A stretch of 37,942 nt of DNA from a virus, in the IMG/VR virus record IMGVR_UViG_3300025137_000106, positions 1 to 37,942 of that record. One strand, given 5' to 3'. A program made the translations under genes and the position numbers. Shown one piece after another: positions 21,056 to 37,718 of the stretch; position 1 is the first letter of the stretch; the number at the start of each line of letters is the position of its first letter. Below the pieces are notes generated by a model. It saw nothing but the letters and a program-made list of their open reading frames with translations, made no database searches and had not been told where the DNA came from.

Positions 21056-21086
21056 TTGGTTATTTAAAATAATCTTCGTATATTAT
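21056..21086 (+). promoter_or_regulatory. Bacteroidota-type promoter for the gene at 21110
   Basis: TTG at 21056-21058, exactly 20 nt, then TATATTAT at 21079-21086, ahead of an ATG 24 nt further on. It shares TTCGTATATT with the other eight promoters in the window but is the most diverged downstream (TACCATAAT in place of ACGTATAATA). The geometry matches the Bacteroidota consensus TTG-N19/20-TAnnTTTG. Confidence 0.7.
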
Positions 21087-21109
21087 ACCATAATCAAAAA
21101 GGGAAAATT

Positions 21110-21367
21110 ATGGGTAAAATGAAAAACAAATTTATCGAAGAACAAGAACATTTAATTAATGAAGCAGTTAATGCCTTTGTTGATGACGATTGGCAGTATC
21201 ATGAATATCTTAAATCATTAACTCCACCTTCTAAACCAGTTACAATGGAAGAGACAAGTAAAGAGTGGGACGATTGGTGGAATAGTTTGACTAATGTTGA
21301 CAAAGAACAATTGTATAAAGAACAATTAGATGCAGAAGAACATTTTAAAAACAACCCCCTCATATGA
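21110..21367 (+). CDS. Small acidic, Trp-rich protein of unknown function
   Basis: 85 aa, first gene behind its own promoter. The sequence is acidic with clustered Trp (KEWDDWWNSLT near 55-65) and an N-terminal basic start (MGKMKNKF). It lacks any known motif. Its end overlaps the next gene by 4 nt, so the two are co-translated. A short 24-nt leader separates the promoter from the ATG. Confidence 0.65.
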   Translation: MGKMKNKFIEEQEHLINEAVNAFVDDDWQYHEYLKSLTPPSKPVTMEETSKEWDDWWNSLTNVDKEQLYKEQLDAEEHFKNNPLI

Positions 21368-21732
21368 ATGTAGAAAATATATCACAAGAGCGCTTTGAAA
21401 AAGCTAAAAAAGGGATTATTAAAAAATATCCAGGTGCCCACACTGTAATAGACTCAAATGGTAAATATTTTGTTGCCACTAAAAATGGCCGTGACATAAA
21501 TAATTTACAAATTAGCCAAGCTATAAAGGCTTATGATTTTGAAGATGAAAGCGATTTATATGGTTTTAATGCAGCCCTAAATAAAGTTACAACAATACCC
21601 CATTCAAGTACAGTGGTAGAAGCTTGGCTTAAAACGGAGATAGCAATTAAATCATACCACGTTGTAGACAGAAATAGTAATAAATTTAGTGACGATAAAG
21701 TCATGAAAAAAATGACAAAAGATTTTGAGTAG
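21364..21732 (+). CDS. Unknown phage protein
   Basis: 122 aa. It begins MNVENISQERFEKAKKGIIKKYPGAHTV and contains a strand-like TVIDSNGKYFVATKNGRDIN run, then helical segments up to VMKKMTKDFE. No cysteine or enzyme motif is visible. The start overlaps the preceding gene by 4 nt and its end the membrane protein gene by 8 nt, consistent with a three-gene transcription unit from the 21056 promoter. Confidence 0.65.
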   Translation: MNVENISQERFEKAKKGIIKKYPGAHTVIDSNGKYFVATKNGRDINNLQISQAIKAYDFEDESDLYGFNAALNKVTTIPHSSTVVEAWLKTEIAIKSYHVVDRNSNKFSDDKVMKKMTKDFE

Positions 21733-22069
21733 AGCATTATTATACAGTGTGTTAATATTTTTAATAACACAAACAGCAGTTTGGTTTCAAACTAATGGAC
21801 AATTTGTTTGGGAGTGGTGTAAAAATAACCCTTTTATATTAAGTTTAGCAGGTGTACCTATTAGTTTAGGTTACATTTATGCTTCTAGATATGCATTTGT
21901 AGCTTTTGACGAATTACTTTGGCCTGGTAGGTTATTAGGATTTGCATTAGGTATTATTTCCTTTACTGTACTAACCAACTATTATATGGGTGAAGGTATT
22001 ACACCTAAAGTGCTAGTAAGTTTAGTATTAGCAATTGCCTTAGTTTGTATTCAGGTTTTTTGGAAGTAA
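21725..22069 (+). CDS. Polytopic membrane protein, about four spans
   Basis: 114 aa. Hydrophobic stretches lie near 3-18, 34-53, 62-82 and 92-111, separated by short loops such as VWEWCKNNP and AFDELLWPGR. The C-terminal WK ends on a charged residue. It is the last gene of a three-gene unit that starts at 21110. Function unknown; small multi-span proteins of this kind occur in T4-like marine phages, but I cannot name a family. Confidence 0.7.
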   Translation: MSRALLYSVLIFLITQTAVWFQTNGQFVWEWCKNNPFILSLAGVPISLGYIYASRYAFVAFDELLWPGRLLGFALGIISFTVLTNYYMGEGITPKVLVSLVLAIALVCIQVFWK

Positions 22070-22084
22070 TTATATGTATATCTG

Positions 22085-22095
22085 ATTGACTGATC
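22085..22095 (+). repeat. Inverted repeat, left arm flanking hsp20
   Basis: ATTGACTGATC at 22085-22095 is the exact reverse complement of GATCAGTCAAT at 22591-22601. The two 11-bp arms bracket the Hsp20 gene. Immediately after, TGATCG (22091-22096) and CGATCA (22106-22111) could form a second small hairpin. The 85-nt gap before the Hsp20 gene has no clear promoter of the type used elsewhere. Confidence 0.55.
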
Positions 22096-22154
22096 GATCT
22101 TAGGACGATCAACAACAATAAATTTTAGAATTATTAATTAAAAACAGTTTACCA

Positions 22155-22580
22155 ATGGGAACATTATTTTTAGAAAACAAACAATTTTCACCTTTTGACA
22201 TACTAGTCAAAAATTTCTTCCAAGCAGAAGAACAATTTCAAACACCAACAAATAGAATTTTAAATCACCCCTTAGACGTCTACGAAGACCCTGATGGTTT
22301 GTATTTTGACATAGCCTGCACTGGCTTAACTAAAAAACAAATCGATATTAAAGTCGAAGATGATGTTTTACTAGTATCATATACTAAAAAAGATAATAAA
22401 AACGATGAAAATCGTCACATTCATCATTCAGGTATTGCAAAACGTAGTTTTAATTTAGGATGGAAAATCGCTAGACGATTTGAATTGCCAAAAATTGAGG
22501 CTTCAATGAAGGATGGGTTATTAAAACTTTTTATCCCCCTTCAACCTGAAAGCAAACCAAAATCAGTTTCAATCAAGTAA
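22155..22580 (+). CDS. Small heat shock protein, Hsp20/alpha-crystallin family
   Basis: 141 aa. The alpha-crystallin domain occupies about 38-132: DVYEDPDGLYFDIACTGLTKKQIDIKVEDDVLLVSY, then a His-rich loop, then AKRSFNLGWKIARRFELPKIEASMKDGLLKLFIPL with the conserved 'A.L.nGvL.i..P' end. The C-terminal SVSIK resembles the I-x-I/V tail that docks in the groove of neighbouring subunits. It should be an ATP-independent chaperone, which many marine T4-like phages carry, perhaps aiding virion folding. It is flanked by 11-bp inverted repeats and followed by a terminator, so it forms its own unit. Confidence 0.95.
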   Translation: MGTLFLENKQFSPFDILVKNFFQAEEQFQTPTNRILNHPLDVYEDPDGLYFDIACTGLTKKQIDIKVEDDVLLVSYTKKDNKNDENRHIHHSGIAKRSFNLGWKIARRFELPKIEASMKDGLLKLFIPLQPESKPKSVSIK

Positions 22581-22590
22581 GTTTTAATAA

Positions 22591-22601
22591 GATCAGTCAA
22601 T
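22591..22601 (+). repeat. Inverted repeat, right arm flanking hsp20
   Basis: GATCAGTCAAT, located 11 nt after the Hsp20 stop codon, is the exact reverse complement of the left arm at 22085-22095. It does not form part of the terminator hairpin downstream. Confidence 0.55.
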
Positions 22602-22645
22602 TATATCCTCGTTAAATAAATAGGTTATGTCCACTTAAGTAATTA

Positions 22646-22675
22646 AGGGTTGGTTTGAGGAACCAATCCTTTTTT
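22646..22675 (+). terminator. Rho-independent terminator after hsp20
   Basis: AGGGTTGGTT (22646-22655) pairs with AACCAATCCT (22661-22670), one G-U pair included, around a 5-nt loop, and is followed by a run of T to 22675. This is a strong intrinsic terminator, separating the Hsp20 transcript from the next gene 23 nt further on. Confidence 0.9.
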
Positions 22676-22697
22676 ATATTTATAACAAATAAACAAA

Positions 22698-23225
22698 ATG
22701 TTTACATTAGGAATACCAAAAAGAGACTATAGACGAGCTACCCAAGTTTTAGGGTATGAAGCACAAGCTAAAGATGGCCAATCTATAGAATTTGAAGTAA
22801 AAAAACAAGATGATGATTTTTACATATTTAGTTTTCCTGACACAGATGAAAAAGCCTTTAGCGATATAGCAAAATTACTAGATAAAGAGGGAGTCCGAGC
22901 TATAGGTGCGGATGAAGCATTAACAGAAAGAAAAATCATGAAATTAGCAGACTTAATAACAGAAGCTCCAACACAACAAGAAATAGACACACCTAAATGG
23001 TTAATTCAATTACAACGTACTTATGATAGTTGGCAAAGTAAAAAATATCAAGACGATAAAAATAAGTGGGAAATGTTTAATGATGACATTAAAGACTTTA
23101 TAGAACATTGGGAGGATAAAACAAATGAAGAAAAAAAGGAAAGAGAAGAAAGAGAAGAAGGAGTTGTTGCATCACTAGATGAGCAAAAATTAAGATCTTT
23201 AATTAGAAAAACTTTAAAAAAATAA
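22698..23225 (+). CDS. Hydrophilic protein with basic C-terminal helix, unknown function
   Basis: 175 aa. The N-terminal half has a GYEAQ...FEVKKQDDDFYIFSFPDTDEKAFSDIAK strand/helix part. The C-terminal half is highly charged (TNEEKKEREEREEG) and ends DEQKLRSLIRKTLKK, an amphipathic basic helix similar to helices in neighbouring proteins. This is the first gene after the Hsp20 terminator, so a promoter must lie in the 22 nt between or further upstream; I see only a weak candidate. Role unknown; a virion component or DNA-binding protein is possible. Confidence 0.65.
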   Translation: MFTLGIPKRDYRRATQVLGYEAQAKDGQSIEFEVKKQDDDFYIFSFPDTDEKAFSDIAKLLDKEGVRAIGADEALTERKIMKLADLITEAPTQQEIDTPKWLIQLQRTYDSWQSKKYQDDKNKWEMFNDDIKDFIEHWEDKTNEEKKEREEREEGVVASLDEQKLRSLIRKTLKK

Positions 23226-23227
23226 TT

Positions 23228-24661
23228 ATGAAGTTATCATTAATAAATTTAGTTCCTTTAGAAGAAATGGACATGAATGATCCAGTTATGATGAGAGCAA
23301 GAGCATCTCAAATGAAAGCGGATAAAGAAGCTAAAAGAAAAGCAAACAGAATAGATGGTAATGAAGCCATGTATCTTAGAGGTGAAATAGCTGATTTAAA
23401 AGATGAAATTAAACAAATATACATTGATATGGAACAAGAAGCTGAGCCAGAGGGCGGTCCCATAGCTGATATGTATGGTGATTTACTTAACAAAGCAGAA
23501 GCCAAATTAGCTGACATGCAAAGTAAATTAGATGATTATGATATGAATGAATACTCTTCTGAAGGCGAAGGAGGTGATGAAGATGAAATAGAAATTGAGC
23601 GTGATGGAAACATTATTTCAGTTAAAATTTCCGTAGGAGATGAAGTTAGATACAAAGGTCATAAAGGAAAAGTATTAAAAACTGAGTATGATGGTGTTAG
23701 AGTTAATTTCCCAACAATTGGTAAAAGTGGAATGACTATGCATTTCTACTACGAGGATTTATACTCAAAAGAAGGATACTATCAAGCAGTTGATGAATCA
23801 TTAAATGAAGAAATGGGTGAATGGCCTAAAGAACTTACATCTAGACACAGTAATGGATATAGATTTGAATTAGAAAAAATAACCCCAACTTACCAAGACA
23901 AACCCGGAAGAGCTAAATATAGAGTAATTGACATTGAAACTGGAGAACTTAAAGGTACACCTGTATTTGGAAAAATAAAACATCTTATGGCTTATGCTGG
24001 TGATTTAATTAAACCTCAAGGTGGTACTCAATCATCAAATTTTGGAGAATCACTAGAAAAAATGATGAATGAATCAGAAGACAAATGGAATGCTATAGAC
24101 GTAAGTAGAAAAGCAGAAAAAGAAATTGGAAATAAAGAATGGAATGAGCGTACTACTAAGAAATTAGATATGTTAATAGCTCTTAATAAAGCGGGTAAAT
24201 TTAAAAAAGATTTTGATGAAGAAAGATTACAAGGTTGGGTTGATCAAAATTATTCTTGGGAAAAATTATCACGACAGTTTAAAGTAAATGAAGGTTCTTG
24301 TGGGTATGGTCCTAACGGAAAACCAGGTAACACACCAGGTGGAACTAGAGGTATGTCCGCAGATGATCGTACAAGAGGTATGTTTAGAAAATTAATTCAA
24401 AAAGAAATAGCAAAATTAAGTGAAAATGATAATTTTGATTATAGACTAAAATCAATGATGGGTAATGATGCTTTTAATAAAGCAACTAACCCTAAATTAG
24501 CTAAATTAATTAACACAGCTATTATGTCTATTGACCCTAACATGTCATACAGAGAATTTGCTAAAGGGGTAGCACAAGTATTAATAGATGATTATGGTGT
24601 TCAAAACTATGAACCATTTATAAAAGAACTAAAAAACGCTTTAGATTCAACTTTAGGATAA
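23228..24661 (+). CDS. Large hydrophilic protein with KOW/SH3-like segment, unknown function
   Basis: 477 aa, starting 2 nt after the previous stop. Residues 25-105 are a charged, coiled-coil-like stretch (KADKEAKRKANR, LRGEIADLKDEIKQIY, KAEAKLADMQSKLDDY). Near 132-175, ISVGDEVRYKGHKGKVLKTEYDGVRVNF matches a KOW/SH3-type barrel. Around 355-375 is an SCGYGPNGKPGNTPGG Gly-rich loop, followed by a RGMFRKLIQKEIAKLSEND helix like those of nearby proteins. The rest is helical. It looks like a modular adaptor or structural protein. The stop overlaps the next ATG as TAATG. Confidence 0.65.
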   Translation: MKLSLINLVPLEEMDMNDPVMMRARASQMKADKEAKRKANRIDGNEAMYLRGEIADLKDEIKQIYIDMEQEAEPEGGPIADMYGDLLNKAEAKLADMQSKLDDYDMNEYSSEGEGGDEDEIEIERDGNIISVKISVGDEVRYKGHKGKVLKTEYDGVRVNFPTIGKSGMTMHFYYEDLYSKEGYYQAVDESLNEEMGEWPKELTSRHSNGYRFELEKITPTYQDKPGRAKYRVIDIETGELKGTPVFGKIKHLMAYAGDLIKPQGGTQSSNFGESLEKMMNESEDKWNAIDVSRKAEKEIGNKEWNERTTKKLDMLIALNKAGKFKKDFDEERLQGWVDQNYSWEKLSRQFKVNEGSCGYGPNGKPGNTPGGTRGMSADDRTRGMFRKLIQKEIAKLSENDNFDYRLKSMMGNDAFNKATNPKLAKLINTAIMSIDPNMSYREFAKGVAQVLIDDYGVQNYEPFIKELKNALDSTLG

Positions 24662-25104
24662 TGACAAAACTAAAAAGTCTTTTAGAGGTAGAATATGGTG
24701 TACATGATTATCTAACACAATTTAAGGATGCAATCCAAAATAATTTTGGACACCAACAATATAGAGATCTTCAAACATTACTTTCTCAAAATAAAGATAA
24801 AGAAGTAGAAGAATGGTTAAACACAAATGGATACTCTAAAGATAAAAAAATTAGAGAGTATGTTAGAGAAAATCTACGTAACTGGTTTAAAAAAGAAAAA
24901 TGGAAGCGTATAGACACACAAGGAAACATTAAAGGTGATTGTGGTACAATGCCCAAAGGTAAAAAGACACAACGATGTTTACCTGCAGCTAAAGCTAAAT
25001 CACTTACAAAGAAACAACGAGCAGCTACATCAAGGAAAAAGACTAAAAGTAATAAACAATTTGTTTCAAACACAAAAGCAGCAAAAGTAAAATTAAAGAA
25101 ATAA
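24661..25104 (+). CDS. Basic protein with Cys-containing tail, probably nucleic-acid-binding
   Basis: 147 aa. The N-terminal half is helical (LEVEYGVHDYLTQFKDAIQ). The C-terminal 55 residues are very basic with a patterned core: GDCGTMPKGKKTQRCLPAAKAKSLTK, then KQRAATSRKKTKSNK. The two Cys lie 11 residues apart and could form a disulfide or bind metal. Tails like this occur in proteins of marine T4-like phages, but I cannot name the family with confidence. It overlaps both neighbours by one base (TAATG). Binding to DNA in the capsid is one possibility. Confidence 0.6.
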   Translation: MTKLKSLLEVEYGVHDYLTQFKDAIQNNFGHQQYRDLQTLLSQNKDKEVEEWLNTNGYSKDKKIREYVRENLRNWFKKEKWKRIDTQGNIKGDCGTMPKGKKTQRCLPAAKAKSLTKKQRAATSRKKTKSNKQFVSNTKAAKVKLKK

Positions 25105-25715
25105 TGGAAAGAGAAGATCATTTATTTGAAGAACTTTGTAAAAAAGGCAAAGCATACCGTGCTAAACGTATGGCGGCGGGTGAAAAATCATCAGCTTACT
25201 TGTCGGGTAGAGCAGTTAAAGTGTGTAAAGGTCAAATGCAAGGTGAAGGTGAAGAAATAGACGAAGTAGAATCAGAAGACGACACAGAATTTACAGTAAG
25301 TTTAAAACATTTACTTAAAAAACATGTTACTAAAGGTGGTAAGGTAGATGAAGTATATGAAGAAATAGATGCATTACATGAAAATGAAGAATACTGTCCT
25401 AAATGTGCTGCTAAAATAGAAGAAATTATTAAAGAAGAAGTTGAAAAAATAGCTAAAGAAGCAAAAACAAAACCTGCTAAAGGTAAACGTTTTGCTAAAA
25501 AAGTAAAAAACCCAAAGACAGGTAGAACTAGAACTGTGTCTTATGGTCAAGCAGGTAAAGCTAAAAAAGGAGGCGATCGTATAAGACCAGGAACAGCTAA
25601 AGGCAATGCATATTGTGCTCGTTCAGCTAAGATTAAAAAATGTAAAAACCCACCTTGTGCAAACACATTATCTAGAAAAAAATGGAAATGTCAAGGTAGT
25701 AGATCAGTAAAATAA
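25104..25715 (+). CDS. Basic Cys-rich protein, possible DNA-binding or internal virion protein
   Basis: 203 aa. The middle has an acidic stretch (EGEEIDEVESEDDTEF) and CPKCAAKIEEII (about 98-109, a CxxC). The last 70 residues are strongly basic: KRFAKKVKNPKTGRTRTVSYG, then RIRPGTAKGNAYCARSAKIKK, with CKNPPC and a final KWKCQGSRSVK. Several Cys in a Lys/Arg background suggest a zinc-binding or disulfide-stabilised nucleic-acid-binding tail. It is coupled by a one-base overlap to the preceding gene, which ends in a similar tail. No enzymatic motif is seen. Confidence 0.6.
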   Translation: MEREDHLFEELCKKGKAYRAKRMAAGEKSSAYLSGRAVKVCKGQMQGEGEEIDEVESEDDTEFTVSLKHLLKKHVTKGGKVDEVYEEIDALHENEEYCPKCAAKIEEIIKEEVEKIAKEAKTKPAKGKRFAKKVKNPKTGRTRTVSYGQAGKAKKGGDRIRPGTAKGNAYCARSAKIKKCKNPPCANTLSRKKWKCQGSRSVK

Positions 25716-25720
25716 ATAAA

Positions 25721-25999
25721 ATGAAACGACTAAATCTTATATTAATGTTATGTGGATTATCTTTATGTATAAATTCATGTAAACAAACTAAAAATGCAAC
25801 TTCAACAATTAATCACAACTTTGAAACAACTAAACATACTCCTGAACTTTTAGATTATTTTGCAAATTCTAGAATTACTAAATATTCTTATTATATAGAA
25901 GAAGGTGACACGTGCCAAATGGCTTTAAGAGTAAACACTGTACATATTTCATATGCACAAGGTAAAAATGGCATAGTAGTTAATGTTATTGTAAAATAG
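25721..25999 (+). CDS. Small lipoprotein
   Basis: 92 aa. The N-terminus is a lipoprotein signal: KR, a hydrophobic core (LILMLCGLSLC), then INSC with the lipidated Cys at position 20, followed by KQTKN. The mature part has a mixed strand pattern (NSRITKYSYYIEEGD). It would be anchored in the host membrane. A phage lipoprotein in the envelope could act in superinfection exclusion or receptor blocking; that is inference. It sits 5 nt after the previous gene and 6 nt before the next. Confidence 0.7.
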   Translation: MKRLNLILMLCGLSLCINSCKQTKNATSTINHNFETTKHTPELLDYFANSRITKYSYYIEEGDTCQMALRVNTVHISYAQGKNGIVVNVIVK

Positions 26000-26005
26000 A
26001 AACTT

Positions 26006-26503: not shown

Positions 26504-26533
26504 AATAAAAATTAAAGACTTCTACAAACAAAC

Positions 26534-26564
26534 TTGGAGAAGCAACATTTTCTTCGTATCTTGA
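26534..26564 (+). promoter_or_regulatory. Bacteroidota-type promoter for the DNA-metabolism genes
   Basis: TTG at 26534-26536, 20 nt, then TATCTTGA at 26557-26564, followed by CGTATAATA. The sequence around it, CTTGGAGAAGC, matches the promoters at 36890 and 37668. The ATG of the ligase gene is 22 nt downstream. It should drive the long train of genes from 26586 to about 33900. Confidence 0.8.
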
Positions 26565-26585
26565 CGTATAATATAAAATACGAAT

Positions 26586-27872
26586 ATGCAAGAACTAAAG
26601 GAATTTGTTGAACAAATGAGAGCTACATCCAGTAGCTTAGATAAAGTAGAAATACTAAAAAAACAATCAGACTTTATACAAAAGGTACTTGAGTACACTT
26701 ACAACCCTTACAAACAATATTATGTTACTAGTAAGGCATGTAAGAAAAATAACGACTTACTTGGTCATTCTAACACTTATGGTAGTATATTTACATTATT
26801 AGATGATTTAACTAATAGAGTTACTACAGGACATAATTCAATTGCTAACATTAATAGATTTATTTTAGAAAATAAACAATACGAAAATTTAATTTATAAC
26901 ATAATTGATAAAGATCTTAAAACTAGAACAGGTGCTAAAGTAATTAACAAAGCATTTCCTAATTTAATTCCAACATTCAACGTTGCATTAGCACAAAGTT
27001 ATGAAGGCAAATGTGATTGGAATAACACATGGTATGCTAGTAGAAAATTAGATGGTGTACGTTGTTTAGCAGTTGTAGACGTTGAAGGTAAATGTACATT
27101 GTATAGTAGAATGGGTAAAGAATTTACCACATTAAATAAAATTAAATATGCTATTGAAGCAACAGGCATTATTAACACTGTATTTGATGGTGAAATTTGT
27201 ATTATAGATAAAGATGGTAATGAAGATTTTCAATCAGTAATGAAAGAACTTAGACGTAAAGACCATCAAATTGAAAACCCTACATTTATGTTGTTTGATA
27301 TGATTCACAAAACTGACTTTGAAAACAATAAGTCAACAGAAATACTATCAGACAGATTACACACATTAAGATCATGGTTAGGACCTAGACATGCTATGGC
27401 TAGCCAGATGGCTAAAGACACGTTACGTTATTTAGATCAAGCAGTTGTTTCAGATGGTAGACATTTTGACATATGGAATCAAATGGCAACTGACAACAAT
27501 TGGGAAGGATTTATGTTACGTAAGGATGTAGGTTATGAAGGTAAACGTAGTAAAAATCTACTTAAAGTAAAATCATTTTATGATGCCGAATATGAAGTGT
27601 TAGGTTGGGACATTGATAATCATGAAGTAGTTAGAGATGGTAAGTCAGAATCAATGACTATGTTGGCACAAGTATGGATTGAACATAAAGGTTATATAGT
27701 AAAAGTTGGTAGTGGATTTAGCCAAGAACAACGTTTAGAATATATGGATGGATCAATTGTAGGTAAAACAATTACTGTACAATATTTTGAAGAAACTAAA
27801 AACGATAAAGGGGGAATATCATTAAGATTCCCTACAGTAAAACACATATACGAAAACAAAAGAGACTGTTAA
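26586..27872 (+). CDS. ATP-dependent DNA ligase
   Basis: 428 aa. Motif I is ASRKLDGVR (about 151-159) with the adenylated Lys at 154. VFDGEICI (199-206) and FMLFDMI (234-240) are motifs III/IIIa, EGFMLRK (307-313) is motif IV and LLKVKSF (325-331) is motif V. An OB domain follows (HKGYIVKVGSGFS). The size and the N-terminal helical part fit T4-like viral ligases. It seals nicks during phage replication, recombination and repair. It is the first gene after a strong promoter. It directly abuts a 36-codon gene and is encoded near UvdE, which creates the nicks it could close. Confidence 0.95.
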   Translation: MQELKEFVEQMRATSSSLDKVEILKKQSDFIQKVLEYTYNPYKQYYVTSKACKKNNDLLGHSNTYGSIFTLLDDLTNRVTTGHNSIANINRFILENKQYENLIYNIIDKDLKTRTGAKVINKAFPNLIPTFNVALAQSYEGKCDWNNTWYASRKLDGVRCLAVVDVEGKCTLYSRMGKEFTTLNKIKYAIEATGIINTVFDGEICIIDKDGNEDFQSVMKELRRKDHQIENPTFMLFDMIHKTDFENNKSTEILSDRLHTLRSWLGPRHAMASQMAKDTLRYLDQAVVSDGRHFDIWNQMATDNNWEGFMLRKDVGYEGKRSKNLLKVKSFYDAEYEVLGWDIDNHEVVRDGKSESMTMLAQVWIEHKGYIVKVGSGFSQEQRLEYMDGSIVGKTITVQYFEETKNDKGGISLRFPTVKHIYENKRDC

Positions 27873-27983
27873 ATGAGGAGATTAATTTATGACATGTATT
27901 ATGCTGATGAAATATCAGTAGAAATAGCAGAAAGGCTATTAGCACAATTAGAAAAAAGTAGAAGTAAAGCAAGAAGATACTAA
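27873..27983 (+). CDS. Very small basic protein, 36 aa
   Basis: ATG at 27873 follows the ligase stop directly and the TAA at 27981-27983 overlaps the next ATG. The product MRRLIYDMYYADEISVEIAE is followed by a helical, Lys/Arg-rich end (EKSRSKARRY). Tight joining on both sides suggests a real gene or a translational coupler; no family is known. Confidence 0.5.
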   Translation: MRRLIYDMYYADEISVEIAERLLAQLEKSRSKARRY

Positions 27984-28480
27984 TGAGAATACCCCCAAAA
28001 CCAAAACGCGGAAAACGTTCACCCTATTATTGGTGGCGTAGATGGAAATCACATCAATATTTACCTGTTAAAAAGGGATTGTTAGCTAGAATACAAAATG
28101 GTGACTTTGAATATCCTGAATTGTTTAAATGGGCAGAGTACGAATTACATTATATGAAAGAAGAACATGATGCATATAAGTTAGAATATAAAGGTTGGGG
28201 CGACATTAAATTTACAGAACAATGGATAGACATTGAAAGACGTTATCGTAAACGTTATAGTAAATTATTTAATGATGCTCATGAAGTAGAACACAGACAC
28301 TTAACTAATTTAGTAGACGCATTAATAAAAGAATTTATTATTACTAGAGAAGAGGTAAAAACAATCATGGAAGAATTTGGAGAAACGACAGAGAGTTTGT
28401 ATATTCATGTAGGAAACAATTATGATTTTAAAAAACCAACCAAAGAGAAGGCAATACATTTATTAAAAACAAGAATATGA
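27983..28480 (+). CDS. Unknown basic helical protein
   Basis: 165 aa. It starts with a basic, aromatic segment (PKPKRGKRSPYYWWRRWKSHQYLP) that could bind nucleic acid. It continues as a helical protein with many charged residues (HYMKEEHDAYKLEYKG, EEVKTIMEEFGET). No catalytic motif is seen. It lies between the ligase and the UV-endonuclease genes and overlaps the latter by 4 nt, so a role in DNA repair or replication is plausible but unproven. Confidence 0.65.
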   Translation: MRIPPKPKRGKRSPYYWWRRWKSHQYLPVKKGLLARIQNGDFEYPELFKWAEYELHYMKEEHDAYKLEYKGWGDIKFTEQWIDIERRYRKRYSKLFNDAHEVEHRHLTNLVDALIKEFIITREEVKTIMEEFGETTESLYIHVGNNYDFKKPTKEKAIHLLKTRI

Positions 28481-29376
28481 AATTAGGTTATGCGTGCATT
28501 AACAGTACACTACAAGCAGCAGATGGTATTACTACCAATCGTGGTATGCGACAAAAAACATTCAACGAGAAAGGATTAGATTATGTGTCTGAATTAGCAT
28601 TACAAAATTGTAAAGATTTAGTTACTATAGTTAAATGGAATGAAACAATGGGCATTAAATTATTTAGAATGTCTAGTGATTTATTTCCTTGGATGACGTT
28701 TTATGATTTTACTGACTTACCTGATTATAATGAAATTGTGGAACATTTAGAATTAGTAGGACTACTAGCAAAAGAATATAATCAACGTTTAACGTTCCAC
28801 CCAAGTCATTTTAACGCTTTAGGTTCACCTAATCCTGTAGTTGTAGAAAAGGCCATTAAGGAGTTAGACAAACACAGTGACATAATGGATTTGATAGGTT
28901 TAAGCACTACAGTGTACAACAAAATTAACATTCATGTTGGTGGTGCTTATGGTGACAAGGAATCTACATTAAAACGATGGATTAACAGTTATTATTTGTT
29001 AAGTGACAATACACAAAAACGTTTAACTATAGAAAACGATGACAAAGCAAACATGTATTCAGTAAAAGAATTATATAAAGGTATATCTAAACAATGTGGT
29101 GTGCCTATTGTGTTTGATTATTATCATCACAAATTTTGTACAGGTGGTTTGTCTGAACAGGAAGCGTTAACATTAGCTGCTAAAACATGGCCAAAGGGTA
29201 TTATACAATGTTGTCATTACAGTGAAAGTAGACGTAAAGAACATTTAGACGAATCTATTAGAGCACAAGCACACAGCGATTTGATTTCTGGTATTATAGA
29301 ATCATATGGGTTAGACATTGATGTTGTAGTAGAAGCAAAACATAAAGAATTAGCAGTATTAAATTATAAAAAATAA
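28477..29376 (+). CDS. uvdE: UV damage endonuclease (UvdE/UVDE family)
   Basis: 299 aa, near the usual 290-320. It has the UVDE TIM-barrel blocks: MKLGYACINSTLQ at the start, NCKDLVTIVKWNE, FRMSSDLFPWMT, LTFHPSHFNALGSP, NKINIHVGGAYGDKESTLKRW, RLTIENDDKANMYSVKEL and VPIVFDYYHHKFC, which supply the His and Glu/Asp metal ligands. The enzyme cuts 5' to UV photoproducts, starting an alternative excision pathway. With the ligase encoded 600 bp upstream it forms an incision-and-sealing set. It would help a phage of sunlit surface water. Confidence 0.93.
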   Translation: MKLGYACINSTLQAADGITTNRGMRQKTFNEKGLDYVSELALQNCKDLVTIVKWNETMGIKLFRMSSDLFPWMTFYDFTDLPDYNEIVEHLELVGLLAKEYNQRLTFHPSHFNALGSPNPVVVEKAIKELDKHSDIMDLIGLSTTVYNKINIHVGGAYGDKESTLKRWINSYYLLSDNTQKRLTIENDDKANMYSVKELYKGISKQCGVPIVFDYYHHKFCTGGLSEQEALTLAAKTWPKGIIQCCHYSESRRKEHLDESIRAQAHSDLISGIIESYGLDIDVVVEAKHKELAVLNYKK

Positions 29377-29379
29377 GTT

Positions 29380-30993: not shown

Positions 30994-31023
30994 ATCGTAT
31001 TTATAAACAGAATAGATAGTACA

Positions 31024-32533: not shown

Positions 32534-32538
32534 AAATT

Positions 32539-32766
32539 ATGGAAAAAGTAAGTTTATATGACTACCTAGGACACGCAGCGGGTTCTGATGTAGGACAGCA
32601 AGTAGCACATGCAGCTAAAAAATCAGGAATAATAATAGAAACAAGACAAGTGTCAAATCCAGTTTACAAAGGACCTGTTATGTTATATCCAAGATCATTT
32701 TTAGACTTGTACTTTAGAGGAGGTTTAAATGAAGGTACTAGTGGTAAACAACTATTAAAAGGGTAA
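32539..32766 (+). CDS. Small protein, unknown function
   Basis: 75 aa, 5 nt after the preceding gene. MEKVSLYDYLGHAAGSDVGQQVAHAAKKSG opens a small Ala/Gly-rich helix, then PVYKGPVMLYPRSFLDLYFRGG follows. Nothing identifies a function. The 1-nt gap to the next ORF is typical of this dense run. Confidence 0.55.
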   Translation: MEKVSLYDYLGHAAGSDVGQQVAHAAKKSGIIIETRQVSNPVYKGPVMLYPRSFLDLYFRGGLNEGTSGKQLLKG

Positions 32767-32767
32767 A

Positions 32768-32962
32768 ATGGCAAAATTAGCAAGACAAGTAATATACACA
32801 AATATTAGATGGGAAGAATCTGAACTAACAGACGAAGAACTAGCACAATGGAAAACAGGTGATGAAGACACCCAACAAGACATTATAGATGATGCAGATT
32901 GGGACTTAAAAAGAGACAAACCATTAGATGATTATGGTGACGTTGAATTAATAGAAGATTAA
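32768..32962 (+). CDS. Small acidic protein, unknown function
   Basis: 64 aa. A basic N-terminus (MAKLARQVIYTNIRW) leads into a strongly acidic remainder (EESELTDEELAQWKTGDEDTQQ, DYGDVELIED). The charge and size recall phage DNA-mimic or inhibitor proteins, but that is speculation. It starts 1 nt after the previous stop. Confidence 0.55.
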   Translation: MAKLARQVIYTNIRWEESELTDEELAQWKTGDEDTQQDIIDDADWDLKRDKPLDDYGDVELIED

Positions 32963-32997
32963 TATGTGGACAACAACAACAACATTTGGAAATAACT

Positions 32998-33114
32998 ATG
33001 AAATTAATTATATACTTACAAAGTAAATGTATACCAAAAGTAAAATTTTGGGTACAACAATGGGTTATAGATAATATTATTGATGAAGTTGATCCAGATG
33101 ATTCTAATTTTTAA
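32998..33114 (+). CDS. Very small protein, 38 aa
   Basis: ATG 32998 to TAA 33112-33114. The product is MKLIIYLQSKCIPKVKFWVQ followed by an acidic end (IIDEVDPDDSNF). A competing short frame (20 aa) starts at 32964 and overlaps its beginning. Coding is uncertain but the longer frame fills an otherwise empty gap. Confidence 0.4.
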   Translation: MKLIIYLQSKCIPKVKFWVQQWVIDNIIDEVDPDDSNF

Positions 33115-33126
33115 AAAACACACACA

Positions 33127-33279
33127 ATGACAACAATTATCTACATAGTACTAGCAATCACAATCACTGCACTCTTAATAGGAGCACTTGTAGGTGTGAT
33201 AGAGCTTTTAAAAGTTCACGACCAAATGGGAGTAAGAGACTTTAAAATTGTGCCATGGGTATCAAAAAAAAATAATTAA
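33127..33279 (+). CDS. Small membrane protein, 50 aa
   Basis: ATG 33127 to TAA 33277-33279. Residues 3-28 (TIIYIVLAITITALLIGALV, then GVIELL) form a single transmembrane helix, followed by a hydrophilic tail ending in WVSKKNN. A lipoprotein gene follows after 9 nt, so an envelope-targeted pair is possible. Function unknown. Confidence 0.5.
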   Translation: MTTIIYIVLAITITALLIGALVGVIELLKVHDQMGVRDFKIVPWVSKKNN

Positions 33280-33288
33280 AAAAATAAA

Positions 33289-33480
33289 ATGAAAAAATTA
33301 ATATTAGCAATATGCATAATAGTCTTAATGTCTAGCTGTGCATCTAATTTAAGTCACTATCAAGTTAGGAAAGGTATATACACTAAAGAAAGAAAAACCC
33401 CAGACTGTATACAGGCATGGGATCCTGTAAGCCCCTACAATCAAAGAGGAAATCAAACAAGAAATAATAAAAAAAGATAA
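33289..33480 (+). CDS. Small lipoprotein
   Basis: 63 aa. MKKLILAICIIVLMSSCASN is a lipoprotein signal with the lipidated Cys at 17, after a Ser-Ser. The mature part is about 46 residues, basic and probably flexible. It lies 1 nt before another lipoprotein gene. These would sit in the host envelope. A role such as superinfection exclusion is inferred, not shown. Confidence 0.6.
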   Translation: MKKLILAICIIVLMSSCASNLSHYQVRKGIYTKERKTPDCIQAWDPVSPYNQRGNQTRNNKKR

Positions 33481-33481
33481 T

Positions 33482-33724
33482 ATGAAAAGAATAATTATAA
33501 TTACGGCAATCATAGCATTGTCATTCACATCCTGTAGAAAAGAAACTCTATGTGATTCAAATTGCGGAATAATAGTTGATGATGGGATTACAACAGGTTG
33601 CAATTGGTTAGATATTAGAAATGATTGTAGTGGTAATGTGAAAAGATTTTGCTTTGATACAAGCACATGGCTTAACAATTATGTAGGTGATGATTTTTGT
33701 GTAACTAATGAAAGTGGGTGGTAA
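33482..33724 (+). CDS. Small Cys-rich lipoprotein
   Basis: 80 aa. MKRIIIITAIIALSFTSCRK is a lipoprotein signal with the lipidated Cys at 18. The mature region contains four or more further Cys (LCDSNCGII, TGCNWL, DCSGN, RFCFDT, FCVTN), which could form disulfides in the periplasm. The stop overlaps the next ATG (TAATG). With the previous gene it forms a lipoprotein pair late in the transcript. Confidence 0.65.
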   Translation: MKRIIIITAIIALSFTSCRKETLCDSNCGIIVDDGITTGCNWLDIRNDCSGNVKRFCFDTSTWLNNYVGDDFCVTNESGW

Positions 33725-33900
33725 TGATAAAAGCAATAAGAATATTTGAAGTACCTTTTTACCTGCTAGTAATAGCATTAGGTTGTTTTGAAAATGAGGC
33801 AACTTGGGCTCAGATAACAGGAATAATTTTAACAATAATATCAGCAGGTAGGTTATTAACAAACTACATAACAGATGATATAATTTATAAAAATAATTAA
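33724..33900 (+). CDS. Small membrane protein, 58 aa
   Basis: The start at 33724 is chosen because it forms a TAATG overlap with the upstream stop; an ATG at 33718 would add two residues. Residues about 9-22 (VPFYLLVIALGCFE) and 30-46 (AQITGIILTIISAGRLL) are hydrophobic, so it is probably a two-span protein with a charged end (DDIIYKNN). It is the last gene of this long transcript, before the hairpin terminator. Confidence 0.5.
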   Translation: MIKAIRIFEVPFYLLVIALGCFENEATWAQITGIILTIISAGRLLTNYITDDIIYKNN

Positions 33901-33912
33901 ATAGACAGAAAA

Positions 33913-33936
33913 AAGGCGCTAAATAATTAGCGCCTT
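33913..33936. terminator. Hairpin terminator between convergent units
   Basis: AAGGCGCTAA (33913-33922) pairs perfectly with TTAGCGCCTT (33927-33936) around a 4-nt loop. On the minus strand it is followed by a T-run (the A-run at 33909-33914), giving a typical intrinsic terminator for the minus-strand RecA-fold gene. The plus-strand side has CTCTCT rather than T's, but the G/C-rich stem may still stop the plus transcript. It is the most GC-rich hairpin seen here. Confidence 0.88.
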
Positions 33937-33970
33937 CTCTCTTCGTAAATAATTAGTAAAAACCACTAAA

Positions 33971-34711
33971 CTAATCAACCATTTCAAAACTATAATCTAC
34001 ACAACCTCCTCTATGTAGTGAAAAATAAATTTTATCACCTACACTACCACGTCTGTTTTTACTAAATTCAATGTAACGTTCTGCATCAGCTCCTCTACCA
34101 TCAAATCGTAGTGCTGCCATTGCTGTGGTCATGTGTTTAATTCTATTACTACCTGCAAATTCTCCTGCTTTTGTCATTTGTTGAATACAAATGAATGCTG
34201 TATTTTTATTTGCTTTATTGTTTGCTTTATTTTGTTTTTCTAGTAAATCTAATAACCAAGATTCAACTTTATTTCTAGCCCATCCCATTTGATCTTTAAC
34301 CATTGATGTAACTTCTGCCCAACTGTCCATTAATACAACATCATAACCATCATCTAACACTTGTTCAACTGCTTGCTTTGGGCAATCTGAATAATCACCC
34401 ATAAACATGATAGGCACTTTTCCAAATTTAGGAAATCGTTTTACATAACCATACATGTCAATGTCGTTCATTTCACCTGAGATGAATAATACCTTTTTAC
34501 CTTGTGCTTGCATATTACAAACCCAATCTAACAACACTGTTGATTTACCTACTCCCGGATCACCAATTACTACTGTGTTAGTACCTGGAAAAATACCTCC
34601 TTCAGTACTTAATACTGAATCAACTATTGTTTTAGTTTTCATTGGGATAAACAAGCCGTCATTGAATGTTACGTCTTGCATTTTTACTAGGTTTAATTCT
34701 ACTTTTTTCAT
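33971..34711 (-). CDS. RecA-fold ATPase, RadA/Sms-KaiC-like
   Basis: 246 aa on the minus strand. VVIGDPGVGKSTVLLDW (about 47-63) is Walker A with Lys56, KKVLFISGEMNDIDM (72-86) matches the SGE segment of RadA/DnaB-type ATPases, and YDVVLMDSWAEV (123-134) is Walker B. No zinc finger or Lon-like C-terminus is present, so it is a stripped core. Such proteins act in recombination or DNA branch processing, and in some phages replace UvsX/RecA. It lies next to the SWIM gene on the same strand. The start is 55 nt downstream of a good promoter, and the stop precedes a hairpin terminator. Confidence 0.8.
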   Translation of the reverse strand: MKKVELNLVKMQDVTFNDGLFIPMKTKTIVDSVLSTEGGIFPGTNTVVIGDPGVGKSTVLLDWVCNMQAQGKKVLFISGEMNDIDMYGYVKRFPKFGKVPIMFMGDYSDCPKQAVEQVLDDGYDVVLMDSWAEVTSMVKDQMGWARNKVESWLLDLLEKQNKANNKANKNTAFICIQQMTKAGEFAGSNRIKHMTTAMAALRFDGRGADAERYIEFSKNRRGSVGDKIYFSLHRGGCVDYSFEMVD

Positions 34712-34766
34712 ATTAATTTATTTATGTGGTTTATTATTTACTTAAGCTCGCGCTCCTTATTATACG

Positions 34767-34797
34767 TGAATATACGAATTCTTATTCAGTTCTCCAA
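34767..34797 (-). promoter_or_regulatory. Bacteroidota-type promoter for the RecA-fold ATPase gene
   Basis: Read on the minus strand, TTG (34797-34795), 20 nt, TATATTCA (34774-34767) and then CGTATAATA, identical to the consensus of the other promoters. It is placed 55 nt before the start of the ATPase gene and lies just beyond the SWIM gene. Confidence 0.82.
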
Positions 34798-34802
34798 ATC
34801 TT

Positions 34803-35021
34803 TTACAATTTTTCTTTTAAACGTTTTATGTGTTTACACTCTTTAAGAGATGGTCTATAATCTGTAGCAGGACAGCTACATTCAAAAGCGCCATTTATTA
34901 AATTGCGAGTCACAGTATAATAATTTAACTTGCCTGTTTTTTTATTTCTAGAACCCATTTCTTTATATCTGGCTATGGGGTTATGTCTTCTTAAATTATT
35001 TATCAACTGATCGTATGTCAT
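34803..35021 (-). CDS. SWIM zinc-finger protein
   Basis: 72 aa on the minus strand. GAFECSCPATDYRPSLKECKH (residues 45-64 or so) gives C48-x-C50, then C62-x-H64, the CxC...CxH layout of SWIM domains. Upstream are a basic helix (LINNLRRHNPIARYKEMGSR) and a strand pair (LNYYTVTR). SWIM proteins bind DNA or proteins; the eukaryotic SWS1 partners a RAD51-type ATPase, and a RecA-fold gene lies directly downstream here. Own promoter 16 nt upstream. A full SWIM domain is small, so 72 aa is sufficient. Confidence 0.75.
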   Translation of the reverse strand: MTYDQLINNLRRHNPIARYKEMGSRNKKTGKLNYYTVTRNLINGAFECSCPATDYRPSLKECKHIKRLKEKL

Positions 35022-35037
35022 CTATTTATATTATATG

Positions 35038-35068
35038 TGAATATACGAACTCTCATTCAATTCTCCAA
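35038..35068 (-). promoter_or_regulatory. Bacteroidota-type promoter for the SWIM gene
   Basis: On the minus strand TTG (35068-35066), 20 nt, TATATTCA (35045-35038), then CATATAATA (one base differs from the usual CGTATAATA). The ATG of the SWIM gene lies 16 nt downstream, so the leader is very short. Back-to-back with the plus-strand promoter at 35112. Confidence 0.8.
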
Positions 35069-35111
35069 ATTTTTTTCAATAAACAATAAAAAAAAGTAAC
35101 CACAAATAAAC

Positions 35112-35142
35112 TTGGAAAACGCAAACAAAGTTCGTATATTCA
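35112..35142 (+). promoter_or_regulatory. Bacteroidota-type promoter for genes at 35168-35588
   Basis: TTG at 35112-35114, 20 nt, TATATTCA at 35135-35142, CGTATAATAAG following. With the minus-strand promoter at 35038 it forms a divergent pair in the 146-nt gap between the SWIM gene and the first plus-strand gene. Confidence 0.85.
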
Positions 35143-35167
35143 CGTATAATAAGAAAAGATAAAAACT

Positions 35168-35341
35168 ATGGCAAAAATCGAAATTACGAAAGCACAATTT
35201 GAAGCGTACGTAAGAGTACAAAAATCAGGAGTTACAAACATGTTTGACATAAGAAACGTCACAGCATTAACAGGTTTAGATAAAAACCAATGTATGGAAA
35301 TAATGAGTAACTATAGTGAATTAGAAGAAAAACACCAATAA
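35168..35341 (+). CDS. Small protein, 57 aa, conserved-phage-protein-like
   Basis: ATG at 35168, 25 nt after the promoter, TAA at 35339-35341. The product, MAKIEITKAQFEAYVRVQKS and then GVTNMFDIRNVTALTGLDKN, has two helices around a Gly turn and a helix-turn-helix look in the second half (ALTGLDKNQCMEIMSNYSEL). Small proteins with this pattern occur in several phages. A regulatory role is possible but unproven. Confidence 0.6.
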   Translation: MAKIEITKAQFEAYVRVQKSGVTNMFDIRNVTALTGLDKNQCMEIMSNYSELEEKHQ

Positions 35342-35342
35342 C

Positions 35343-35588
35343 ATGAAACATAATAATGTTACAATAGACTTACAGCCAAGACCTGTATTGCAAGAATTAA
35401 TTGAAGACTTAACTAACAAAATGTTAACACAAAAACAAACGTTAGATAGTTTAGATTCCTATGCTGATCCATTTTTAATTCAGGGATTGGAAGCAGACAT
35501 TAGACTGCTAGATCAAGTAATTGAAAGATGTTATGCACAACAAGAATTAATAAATCTTAGGTCTTCACAACTAATATGTTTAAACTAA
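35343..35588 (+). CDS. Small helical protein, unknown function
   Basis: 81 aa, 1 nt after the previous stop. It is helical throughout (VLQELIEDLTNKMLTQKQ, LEADIRLLDQVIERCYAQQE), probably a coiled-coil or helical hairpin. No motif is recognised. It is the second gene of a two-gene unit and is followed by another promoter. Confidence 0.6.
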   Translation: MKHNNVTIDLQPRPVLQELIEDLTNKMLTQKQTLDSLDSYADPFLIQGLEADIRLLDQVIERCYAQQELINLRSSQLICLN

Positions 35589-35606
35589 AGACGATTGCGG
35601 GGACAC

Positions 35607-35637
35607 TTGGAAGACTGAGTGAGAGTTCGTATATTGA
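35607..35637 (+). promoter_or_regulatory. Bacteroidota-type promoter for the DUF932-like gene
   Basis: TTG at 35607-35609, 20 nt, TATATTGA at 35630-35637, then CGTATAATATAAAG. The gene starts 33 nt downstream. The GGGGACACTTGG upstream is distinct from the other promoters. Confidence 0.82.
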
Positions 35638-35669
35638 CGTATAATATAAAGAGTAAAAATAAATAAATT

Positions 35670-36590
35670 ATGAGTAAAGAAGAATTAAACAACAGTGAAT
35701 TTGAAATTCAAGCAAGAGTACAAAAAGTATTTGTAGATGCAACAGCAAAAAAAGTAGAAAACCATGAAGCATTAAATGACAGTGAAATAAAATTGTTATG
35801 TCCTGTTGCAATGAAAACTACAATGGGTAATGATGAGATAGCTAAATTAGGTTTGTCAGAACATTATTCATTTGTTCCTACCATAAATGTAGTAAATGAT
35901 TTACGTGAATTAGGTTATGAAGTTGTAGATGCAGTTCAAGTTAAATCTAGAAAAAAATCAACTAATGGTTATCAAAAGCATATGCTTACACTTGAACACC
36001 CAAAATATAAAATTGAAGGCTCAGAAGAATATCCACAAATACTATTAACTAACAGTCATGATGGTGGTAATGCATTTTCGTTGTCAGCAGGTATATTTAG
36101 ACTAGTATGTAGTAATGGTTTAGTTATTAAAACTGAAGATTATGGCACAGCTAGATTGGTACACAAAGGTTATTCATTTGAAGCAGTACAAGAGTTAGTT
36201 AAGCAATTTGAAGAACAAATGTCTGAAGTGCTTACTAAAATTACAGCAATGAAAAAGGTTGAATTAACTAAAGCACAACAAATTGAATTTGCTAAAAAAG
36301 CTGCATTGCTAAGATTTACAGCTAAGTCATACAATGAAGATAACATTAGTGACGTAGTTAACATAGATGATTTGTTAAATGTAGATAGAAAAGAAGATGC
36401 AGGTAATGGTTTGTATGAAGTGTTTAATCGTGTACAGGAAAGTATAGTACAAGGTAAATATCTATATGCTTCAAATGGTAAAGTAAAAGATGCTAACACT
36501 AAAACTAGAAAAGCTAGACCAATTAAAAACTTCAAACAAAGTATTGAAGTAAATAAAAAGTTAAGTGAATTAGCATTTGAATTAGTATAA
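35670..36590 (+). CDS. DUF932-like phage protein
   Basis: 306 aa. The block SHDGGNAFSLSAGIFRLVCSNGLVI (about 128-152) is the clearest match to DUF932, a family of phage and plasmid proteins of unknown activity, often near DNA-processing genes. The flanking VPTINVVNDLRELGYEV and HMLTLEHPKYKIEGSEEYPQ segments also fit. The C-terminal 100 residues are helical and basic (KTRKARPIKNFKQS). It has its own promoter and a hairpin directly after it. The biochemical role is unknown. Confidence 0.75.
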   Translation: MSKEELNNSEFEIQARVQKVFVDATAKKVENHEALNDSEIKLLCPVAMKTTMGNDEIAKLGLSEHYSFVPTINVVNDLRELGYEVVDAVQVKSRKKSTNGYQKHMLTLEHPKYKIEGSEEYPQILLTNSHDGGNAFSLSAGIFRLVCSNGLVIKTEDYGTARLVHKGYSFEAVQELVKQFEEQMSEVLTKITAMKKVELTKAQQIEFAKKAALLRFTAKSYNEDNISDVVNIDDLLNVDRKEDAGNGLYEVFNRVQESIVQGKYLYASNGKVKDANTKTRKARPIKNFKQSIEVNKKLSELAFELV

Positions 36591-36600
36591 AGACAATTAC

Positions 36601-36629
36601 AAGGGAATTTGGAAAAGCTAAATTCCCTT
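36601..36629 (+). terminator. Inverted repeat, terminator or operator after the DUF932-like gene
   Basis: AAGGGAATTT (36601-36610) pairs perfectly with AAATTCCCTT (36620-36629) across a 9-nt loop, followed by a single T only. It starts 10 nt after the stop of the DUF932-like gene, so it may be an intrinsic terminator, though the T-run is weak. It also overlaps the TTGG of the next promoter (36609), so it could act as an operator. Confidence 0.6.
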
Positions 36630-36639
36630 TGTATATTCA
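36609..36639 (+). promoter_or_regulatory. Bacteroidota-type promoter for the gene at 36661
   Basis: TTG at 36609-36611, 20 nt, TATATTCA at 36632-36639, CGTATAATAAA following; the ATG is 22 nt downstream. The TTG sits in the left arm and loop of the hairpin at 36601-36629. Confidence 0.82.
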
Positions 36640-36660
36640 CGTATAATAAATAAAAATAAT

Positions 36661-36906
36661 ATGGCAAAAACAGTAGACGACTACAAAGCATTCACTGGGA
36701 TTAATCTTAGTAATGCTAGAAGCGAAAATGAATCTTATGAAGATTATAAAAAACGCTTAAAACAAAACAATGAAATGCTCAAACTGTATAAAACAGTAGG
36801 TAGAGACAATTTTAAACAAATGTTTCCAAATGGTGTGTTTGAGGCAATAAAAAATGCTGAAGAAGCAGAAAAGACAAATGTAGAAACACTTGGAGAAGCC
36901 ACATAG
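36661..36906 (+). CDS. Small protein, unknown function
   Basis: 81 aa. MAKTVDDYKAFTGINLSNAR is followed by a charged helical middle (ENESYEDYKKRLKQNNEML) and an acidic, Ala-rich end (EAIKNAEEAEKTNVETLGEAT). The last codons encode LGEAT because the gene end overlaps the TTG of the following promoter (36890). Function unknown. Confidence 0.65.
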   Translation: MAKTVDDYKAFTGINLSNARSENESYEDYKKRLKQNNEMLKLYKTVGRDNFKQMFPNGVFEAIKNAEEAEKTNVETLGEAT

Positions 36907-36940
36907 AGTTCGTATATTCACGTATAATAAGAAAGGATAA
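36888..36940 (+). repeat. 53-bp direct repeat, copy 1 (promoter module)
   Basis: Bases 36888-36940 are identical to 37666-37718. They hold the whole promoter plus the start of the leader (down to AAGGATAA). Copies are 778 nt apart and flank the gene at 36959. Confidence 0.9.
36890..36920 (+). promoter_or_regulatory. Bacteroidota-type promoter for the gene at 36959
   Basis: TTG at 36890-36892, 20 nt, TATATTCA at 36913-36920, CGTATAATAAG following; the ATG is 38 nt further. The -33 element is inside the end of the upstream coding region. Confidence 0.85.
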
Positions 36941-36958
36941 GAACTAAATAAAACCAAG

Positions 36959-37648
36959 ATGACAAGAAATGATCAACAAATGTATTCTGATGTTACTAGC
37001 ATTGCTAAATCATTAGAAAAAATAGCAAATGCATTAGATAATAATGTGCCACAAACAACTAAAAGCCTAGACGCCTTAGATGTGCTATCTGATATTAAAA
37101 CAATTACAGATGATTATGCTAGCAAGCATGATACGCCAACTTCTAACAATCCTAACCCTGCAGGTTATGGTGATGATGAAAACTTCCCAACAGCAGATTA
37201 TGATTTTGGTAAAGACCTAAGCGCAAGGGTGATTTTAAATGATTCAGACTATGACATAAGAATTGCTGCAAAAATGTATAAAGACTTATTATGGAATGGT
37301 GGTTCTGAAAATGGAAAGAAATTACATACTAAAAAAGATTGTATATTAGATTATGTTACAGATGAATTTAGTGTTTTTGGTGCTAGATACACTGACATAA
37401 TTAAGTTTGCTTATTATCTTAATAACCACAATGGTCCTAAATTTACTAATGTAAACAGAGGATATTATTCATGTGCGTTTAGTCCTAGATTAAATGGCCA
37501 TTTGATACAGGGTGGTAAAGATCAGTTAGTAAAAGGAATTAACTTTGATGGTAATGAAAGATATTTTGCATTAAGTTATGTAGATCAAGCTACTGGATAT
37601 TATAAAAGAATAGGTTTAGATTCACTAATGACAAACAAAATTAGATAA
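36959..37648 (+). CDS. Unknown phage protein
   Basis: 229 aa. The N-terminus is helical (MYSDVTSIAKSLEKIANALD), then a Pro/Asn-rich linker (HDTPTSNNPNPAGYGDDENFP), then a mixed domain with DSDYDIRIAAKMYKDLLWNGG and a Tyr-rich C-terminal stretch (NRGYYSCAFSPRLNGHL, YFALSYVDQATGYYKRIGL). No catalytic motif is seen. It is flanked on both sides by the same 53-bp promoter module. Confidence 0.65.
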   Translation: MTRNDQQMYSDVTSIAKSLEKIANALDNNVPQTTKSLDALDVLSDIKTITDDYASKHDTPTSNNPNPAGYGDDENFPTADYDFGKDLSARVILNDSDYDIRIAAKMYKDLLWNGGSENGKKLHTKKDCILDYVTDEFSVFGARYTDIIKFAYYLNNHNGPKFTNVNRGYYSCAFSPRLNGHLIQGGKDQLVKGINFDGNERYFALSYVDQATGYYKRIGLDSLMTNKIR

Positions 37649-37665
37649 AAGAATTCGCTAAAAAA

Positions 37666-37718
37666 ACTTGGAGAAGCCACATAGAGTTCGTATATTCACG
37701 TATAATAAGAAAGGATAA
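37666..37718 (+). repeat. 53-bp direct repeat, copy 2 (promoter module)
   Basis: Perfect copy of 36888-36940, located 18 nt after the stop of the previous gene. It carries the promoter of the last, partial gene. Confidence 0.9.
37668..37698 (+). promoter_or_regulatory. Bacteroidota-type promoter for the last gene
   Basis: TTG at 37668-37670, 20 nt, TATATTCA at 37691-37698, CGTATAATAAG following; the ATG at 37737 is 38 nt downstream, the same distance as for copy 1. Confidence 0.85.

Follow-up and report, generated by a model that had tools for sequence, protein, structure and literature searches.

The PeSLs (promoter-early stem-loops) of T4-like phages reportedly join a terminator and an early promoter in one composite element, lie between small variable genes and are linked to the shuffling of gene modules. 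Phage N4 has a hairpin promoter. T4 early promoters and their T4-like counterparts occur as many near-identical copies with a consensus that extends beyond the sigma elements, and they stand before early genes and novel ORFs; the same phages have a distinct late motif and a late sigma factor (PMC2988021, PMC1524935). T4 middle promoters have a box at -30 that replaces the -35 element (PMC2988021). Phage promoters of the Bacteroidota are little mapped. The consensus in Flavobacterium is TAHHTTTG with the start 4-5 nt beyond; its -5 position is a nearly invariant G, and the native -33 element is weak (PMC6847099).

Here we analyze repeated sequences in the window, a 37,942-nt stretch of viral DNA (IMG/VR record IMGVR_UViG_3300025137_000106), and in related viruses. 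These sequences are almost certainly promoters of non-structural genes. Like T4 early promoters they are numerous, nearly identical and extended beyond the sigma elements; they differ from them in being built on a Bacteroidota -33/-7 pattern rather than -35/-10 and in enclosing, in part of the family, a hairpin. Relative to the main-sigma promoters of the Bacteroidota (TTTG / TANNTTTG; PMC6847099), they have the same -33 TTG, TAHHTT, spacing and start distance, but carry A at -5, T at -6 in half of the sites, and a strong TTGG and TTCG. Our preferred reading, which we hold to be probable, is that the sites are early promoters of a T4-related Bacteroidota phage, with hairpin and promoter overlapping in part of the family.

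The repeated motif in the window and its relatives

The pattern TTGG-N15-TTnGTATnTTnA has 9 matches in the window against 0 expected, and TTGGN15TTNGTATNTTNA has exactly 9, with 0 in 100 dinucleotide shuffles. The nine strong matches begin at 26534, 28377, 35112, 35607, 36609, 36890 and 37668 on the plus strand and at 34797 and 35068 on the minus strand, which thus holds two of the nine. A PWM trained on eight of them (28377 was outside the training set) gives the nine scores of 39-57, and 21056, next in rank, has 9.4; shuffled windows reach a maximum of 12.3. With a family-wide PWM, for which a threshold of 14 gives 517 hits in the fetched loci and 0 in reversed-sequence controls, 21056 scores 16.9 and is for this reason counted as a weak member. 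The set in the window is therefore ten, nine strong and one weak. These members are listed below with a nested hairpin and a contrast element.

21056..21086, plus strand: weak tenth member, with -33 TTGG and -7 TATATTAT, before an ORF at 21110 (85 aa)
22647..22685, plus strand: contrast element, a hairpin with a T run followed by late-type TATTTATAA at 22677, before an ORF at 22698
26534..26573, plus strand: predicted promoter of the ATP-dependent DNA ligase gene (26586-27872); window PWM and pattern
28377..28407, plus strand: member within CDS 27983-28480, upstream of the UvdE endonuclease gene (28477-29376)
34758..34797, minus strand: predicted promoter of the KaiC/DnaB-like ATPase gene (34711-33971, minus); window PWM and pattern
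35029..35068, minus strand: predicted promoter of a 72-aa ORF (35021-34803, minus); divergent partner of 35112
35112..35151, plus strand: predicted promoter of small ORFs at 35168 and 35343; divergent partner of 35068
35607..35646, plus strand: predicted promoter of the DUF932 protein gene (35670-36590); window PWM, family PWM and pattern
36602..36628, plus strand: nested hairpin of the 36609 site, -13.4 kcal/mol, z -7.4
36609..36648, plus strand: predicted promoter of an 81-aa ORF (36661-36906); window PWM and pattern
36890..36929, plus strand: predicted promoter of a 229-aa ORF (36959-37648); the -33 overlaps the end of ORF 36661-36906
37668..37707, plus strand: predicted promoter of an ORF leaving the window end (about 37740); window PWM and pattern

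A preliminary description had reported nine near-identical sites. The repetition is real, but that count took in 21056, since the span it gave begins there, and probably missed 28377. The distance of exactly 20 nt from TTG to TA holds at all ten. TTCG just upstream, ascribed to every site, is present at eight, with TTTG at 28377 and 36609, and the downstream element is exact (ACGTATAATA) at seven, reads ACATATAATA at 35068 and is missing at 21056 and 28377.

The core TYGTATATTSACGTATAATA matched 49 IMG/VR stretches. Among the matches listed, the spacer is N15 in 158 of 159 unique IMG/VR sites when 11-19 is allowed; the total number of sites is higher. Twelve whole records contain 1-16 exact sites each, while reversed-pattern matches number 0. 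The motif is a trait of a viral family, a wider scope than the single genome to which it had been assigned. A search of the window against Rfam gave no match, and in the literature searched we found no description of a TTGG-N15-TTCGTATATTnACG promoter.

Among cultured phages, Flavobacterium phage immuto encodes the closest relative of the DUF932 protein; immuto is of the T4 type and has gp20, gp23 and a recombinase. G001, a 164-kb relative, has replication and structural genes in common with immuto, and ligase, ATPase, UvdE, DUF932 and HNH genes in common with the window. All three have the same gene order of glycan genes, an HNH gene and then small genes with promoters of the same geometry, although immuto's own copies are a variant with TTGC and TATATTTAGGTAT. 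The window's relatives are T4-type phages near immuto.

Placement relative to genes and the late-type motif

Every one of the 17 sites scoring at least 24 in G001 is centred between ORFs, at a coding density of 95% (p=2e-22), as are seven of eight in the window, where 28377, which lies in a gene, scores below 24; the motif is thus not equally frequent within genes. Fourteen of the 17 strong G001 sites fall in 48.0-70.6 kb of the 164 kb (p=4e-10), a region between the glycan and structural genes, and none of the 17 precedes a structural gene. G001 thus shows what characterizes T4-type early promoters: repeated sites with an extended consensus before non-structural genes and none before structural ones. 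Across 464 non-redundant sites, TTGG lies a median of 7 nt past the stop of a codirectional upstream gene, and from the predicted start to the next ORF the median distance is 23 nt.

Sites in the window head the genes for the ligase, UvdE, the KaiC/DnaB-like ATPase and DUF932, and small orphan genes. Orthologous genes in relatives keep sites in front of them: the ligase gene in L055, L056 and L058, the ATPase gene in L055 and L056, and the DUF932 gene in L050, L055, L056, G001 and immuto. Five more sequences orthologous to CDS 27983-28480, all distinct, preserve the 28377 site with its N15. They use TTG for Leu throughout and, in two, CTT for the second Leu. These codons are rare by comparison with TTA, the codon for 67% of the window's leucines; we attach no p-value to this conservation because the sequences are related and non-independent.

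These results bear out the promoter reading of the preliminary description, in that the motif heads non-structural genes. The glycan region is free of the motif, as reported, with none in 1-21,055. The claim that a site heads each short unit right of 21 kb is too broad: 22.7-26.5 kb and 29.4-33.9 kb are without sites, and 22677 has a different, late-type motif. Within the glycan region itself, two genes have an identical 65-bp start (14500-14564 and 15722-15786) and then diverge, which suggests duplication or gene conversion.

Structural genes prefer another motif, TATTTATAAT, and on this ground a late-promoter reading of the TTGG-N15 sites was rejected. TATTTAT[AT]A is found upstream of 17 of 69 structural-region genes in G001 compared with 9 of 128 others (p=7e-4), and of 14 of 65 compared with 4 of 152 in immuto (p=2e-5). 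The window has one good copy, at 22677. There, within 22647-22685, a terminator-like hairpin with a T run directly precedes TATTTATAA, so that hairpin and promoter are joined at a late-type site too.

G001, immuto and others also have in common a sigma-70 region 2-like protein. Its matches to sigma-70 region 2 are below the curated cut-offs and a PDB sequence search gave no match; its structure model is weak (mean pLDDT 63), and the structure matches are largely sigma factors. We regard this protein as a probable late sigma factor. Unannotated members of the family, candidate late sigma factors, are encoded at L194:1303-2115, L191:1321-2028 and L052:28174-28872. As with T4 late promoters (TATAAATA) and gp55 (PMC2988020, PMC1524935), a short AT-rich motif stands ahead of the relatives' structural genes, and a sigma-70 region 2-like protein is encoded. 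Differences from T4 are the motif itself, TATTTATAAT, and a sigma match that falls short of curated cut-offs; the arrangement serves here as a contrast class.

A hairpin nested between the -33 and -7 elements

Many of the relatives' copies contain a terminator-like hairpin between the -33 and -7 elements, a feature that is new here and an addition to the earlier reading. We folded a 31-nt stretch that begins 12 nt upstream of TTGG and ends just before TTCG, against mononucleotide shuffles, and found z below -2 in 24% of the 464 sites, compared with 10% and 7% in the flanking stretches. The outer stem shows an excess of Watson-Crick pairs (z 4.5) and a deficit of A-C mismatches (z -4.7), with G-T pairs neutral (z 0.1), the pattern expected of an RNA transcribed in the same direction as the promoter. 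T runs are longer behind strong stems (p=1e-9). Such stems occur at 93 of 357 codirectional sites and 1 of 31 divergent ones (p=0.0015), at a threshold of z<-2 that was picked after looking; a rank test of codirectional versus divergent sites was not significant (p=0.23). In immuto, the -33 TTG lies in the stem of a standard terminator, AAAGGCTTG-loop-CAAGTCTTTTTTCGTATATT. In the window, 36609 alone has a clear nested hairpin, an 11-bp stem with a 5-nt loop whose 5' arm holds the -33 TTGG and which is followed by the TTTG of the -7 region. The 35607 site has a weak one at 35604-35621 (-6.1 kcal/mol, not significant).

Such copies resemble a compact version of the PeSLs of T4-like phages and may, like them, join a terminator stem-loop to an early promoter. 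Unlike in PeSLs, the hairpin is nested between -33 and -7 and uses some of the -33 bases, the host polymerase is different, and strong hairpins are limited to about one site in four.

The nested inverted repeat might not be an RNA terminator but a DNA operator, a dyad bound by a dimeric protein. Dyads are indeed present, and in many sites they are centred at around +4.5 to +5, counted from the first T of TTGG, yet arm length and centre vary. The depletion of A-C but not of G-T is explained only by sense-strand RNA, and the longer T runs after strong stems and their rarity at divergent sites also argue against an operator, which we consider possible but rather improbable. In the terminator reading, the -33 box would in part of the family form one arm of an RNA hairpin ending near the T run before -7, and the same 45 bp would stop incoming upstream transcription and start the next unit.

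Polymerase, timing and host

The phage sites agree with the Flavobacterium consensus at -12, -11, -8 and -7, and all ten window sites have TTG at -33 and TAHHTT at -12 to -7 at the host spacing. At the 26534 site, for instance, the -33 element is at 26534 and the -7 element at 26557-26564, with the predicted +1 at about 26569. This agrees with the Bacteroidota-like geometry proposed earlier, as does the fact that the cultured relative infects Flavobacterium. The match to the published TAHHTTTG is nonetheless incomplete at T-6 and G-5: A stands at -5 in 423 of 462 sites (92%), and T at -6 in 228 of 462. A sigma-70 reading with GTATAATA as the -10 was rejected, as no -35 lies at a fitting distance and GTATAATA is missing at many sites with an intact TTCGTATATT core. 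An N4-like hairpin promoter was rejected as well, the predicted start lying ~30 nt downstream, past the -7 element.

We propose that the sites would be bound by the host's RNA polymerase carrying the main sigma factor, through TTGG at -33 and TATATTnA spanning -12 to -5. Transcription would then begin within the conserved TAATA tract, at a median distance of 23 nt from the start codon downstream. Each copy would open a short unit, among them those of the ligase, UvdE, the KaiC/DnaB-like ATPase, DUF932 and small orphan genes, while structural genes would use TATTTATAAT, probably read by the phage sigma factor.

By exclusion and gene class the nine sites would be early or middle promoters, and early is favoured, since the sites have both sigma elements, -33 and -7, in the manner of T4 early promoters (PMC2988021). 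The rigid TTGG, set against the weak native -33 of Flavobacterium, could mean a phage activator. A middle-type regulon would be one switched on after early protein synthesis, by a MotA-like phage activator at the TTGG region or a phage-modified polymerase. Such a regulon would account for the rigid TTGG, for A rather than G at -5 and for the absence of the full motif from host genomes, and the T4 middle box at -30 (PMC2988021) offers a parallel. We nevertheless think it unlikely: -33 and -7 are both present at host spacing, ahead of these genes we saw no further class of promoter closer to the host type, and we identified no activator. Of the earlier proposal of a regulon of the virus's own, the distinct set of sites stands, but the extended match is equally explained by a very strong early promoter for the host polymerase. 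A bolder proposal, to which we give little weight, is that a widespread Bacteroidota T4-like lineage uses a fused terminator-promoter, 45 bp that end one transcript and form the -33/-7 spacer of the next promoter, and that the -5 preference marks a phage-altered polymerase or activator.

In many uncultured viruses, early-type regions are marked by TTGG-N15-TTCGTATATTnACG, whose sites are testable promoter parts for Bacteroidota. The consensus also suggests that these phages rebuilt the T4 combination of early promoters, a late sigma factor and shuffling cassettes around another host polymerase.

The host is probably a member of the Bacteroidota. Across 257 Gb of prokaryote genomes the 21-mer TTCGTATATTSACGTATAATA matches once; the contig concerned (CAJQJC010000069.1, our L050) was assigned to a Candidatus Pelagibacter bin, which could point to a host outside the Bacteroidota such as Pelagibacter. 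The contig is mis-binned and belongs to a related phage; its DUF932 protein shares 89% identity with that of the window, and it carries many of these promoters. The promoter geometry is unlike sigma-70, and the nearest cultured DUF932 relative, along with a matching promoter layout, is found in Flavobacterium phage immuto; a host outside the Bacteroidota is very improbable. A regulon of the host was rejected on the same count, the only occurrence of the 21-mer being on a phage contig.

The 36890 and 37668 copies have about 53 identical bp with unrelated flanks, and the genes lying between sites are ordered differently in the window, L050, L055 and L056. Such rearrangement and identical copies would fit promoter cassettes acting as recombination homology, a role reported for PeSLs (PMC4503421, citing Arbiol 2010 and Comeau 2014). 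That the block is mainly a mobile or recombination sequence (a repeat cassette) or an operator, with promoter activity secondary or absent, would suit the identical copies and the changing gene order but is scarcely credible, as only promoter-like columns are kept across distant phages and the sites are intergenic, fixed in orientation and distance to starts, and maintained within one CDS.

A separate observation concerns PP395634.1, labelled Microcystis phage Mel-JY01 (L181, L195), whose proteins are close to those of the phages described here. It contains six Bacteroidota-type promoters of the form TTG-N20-TATATTTGTA, with 0 in controls, and its Microcystis host label may be wrong, the host being, for example, an epibiont.
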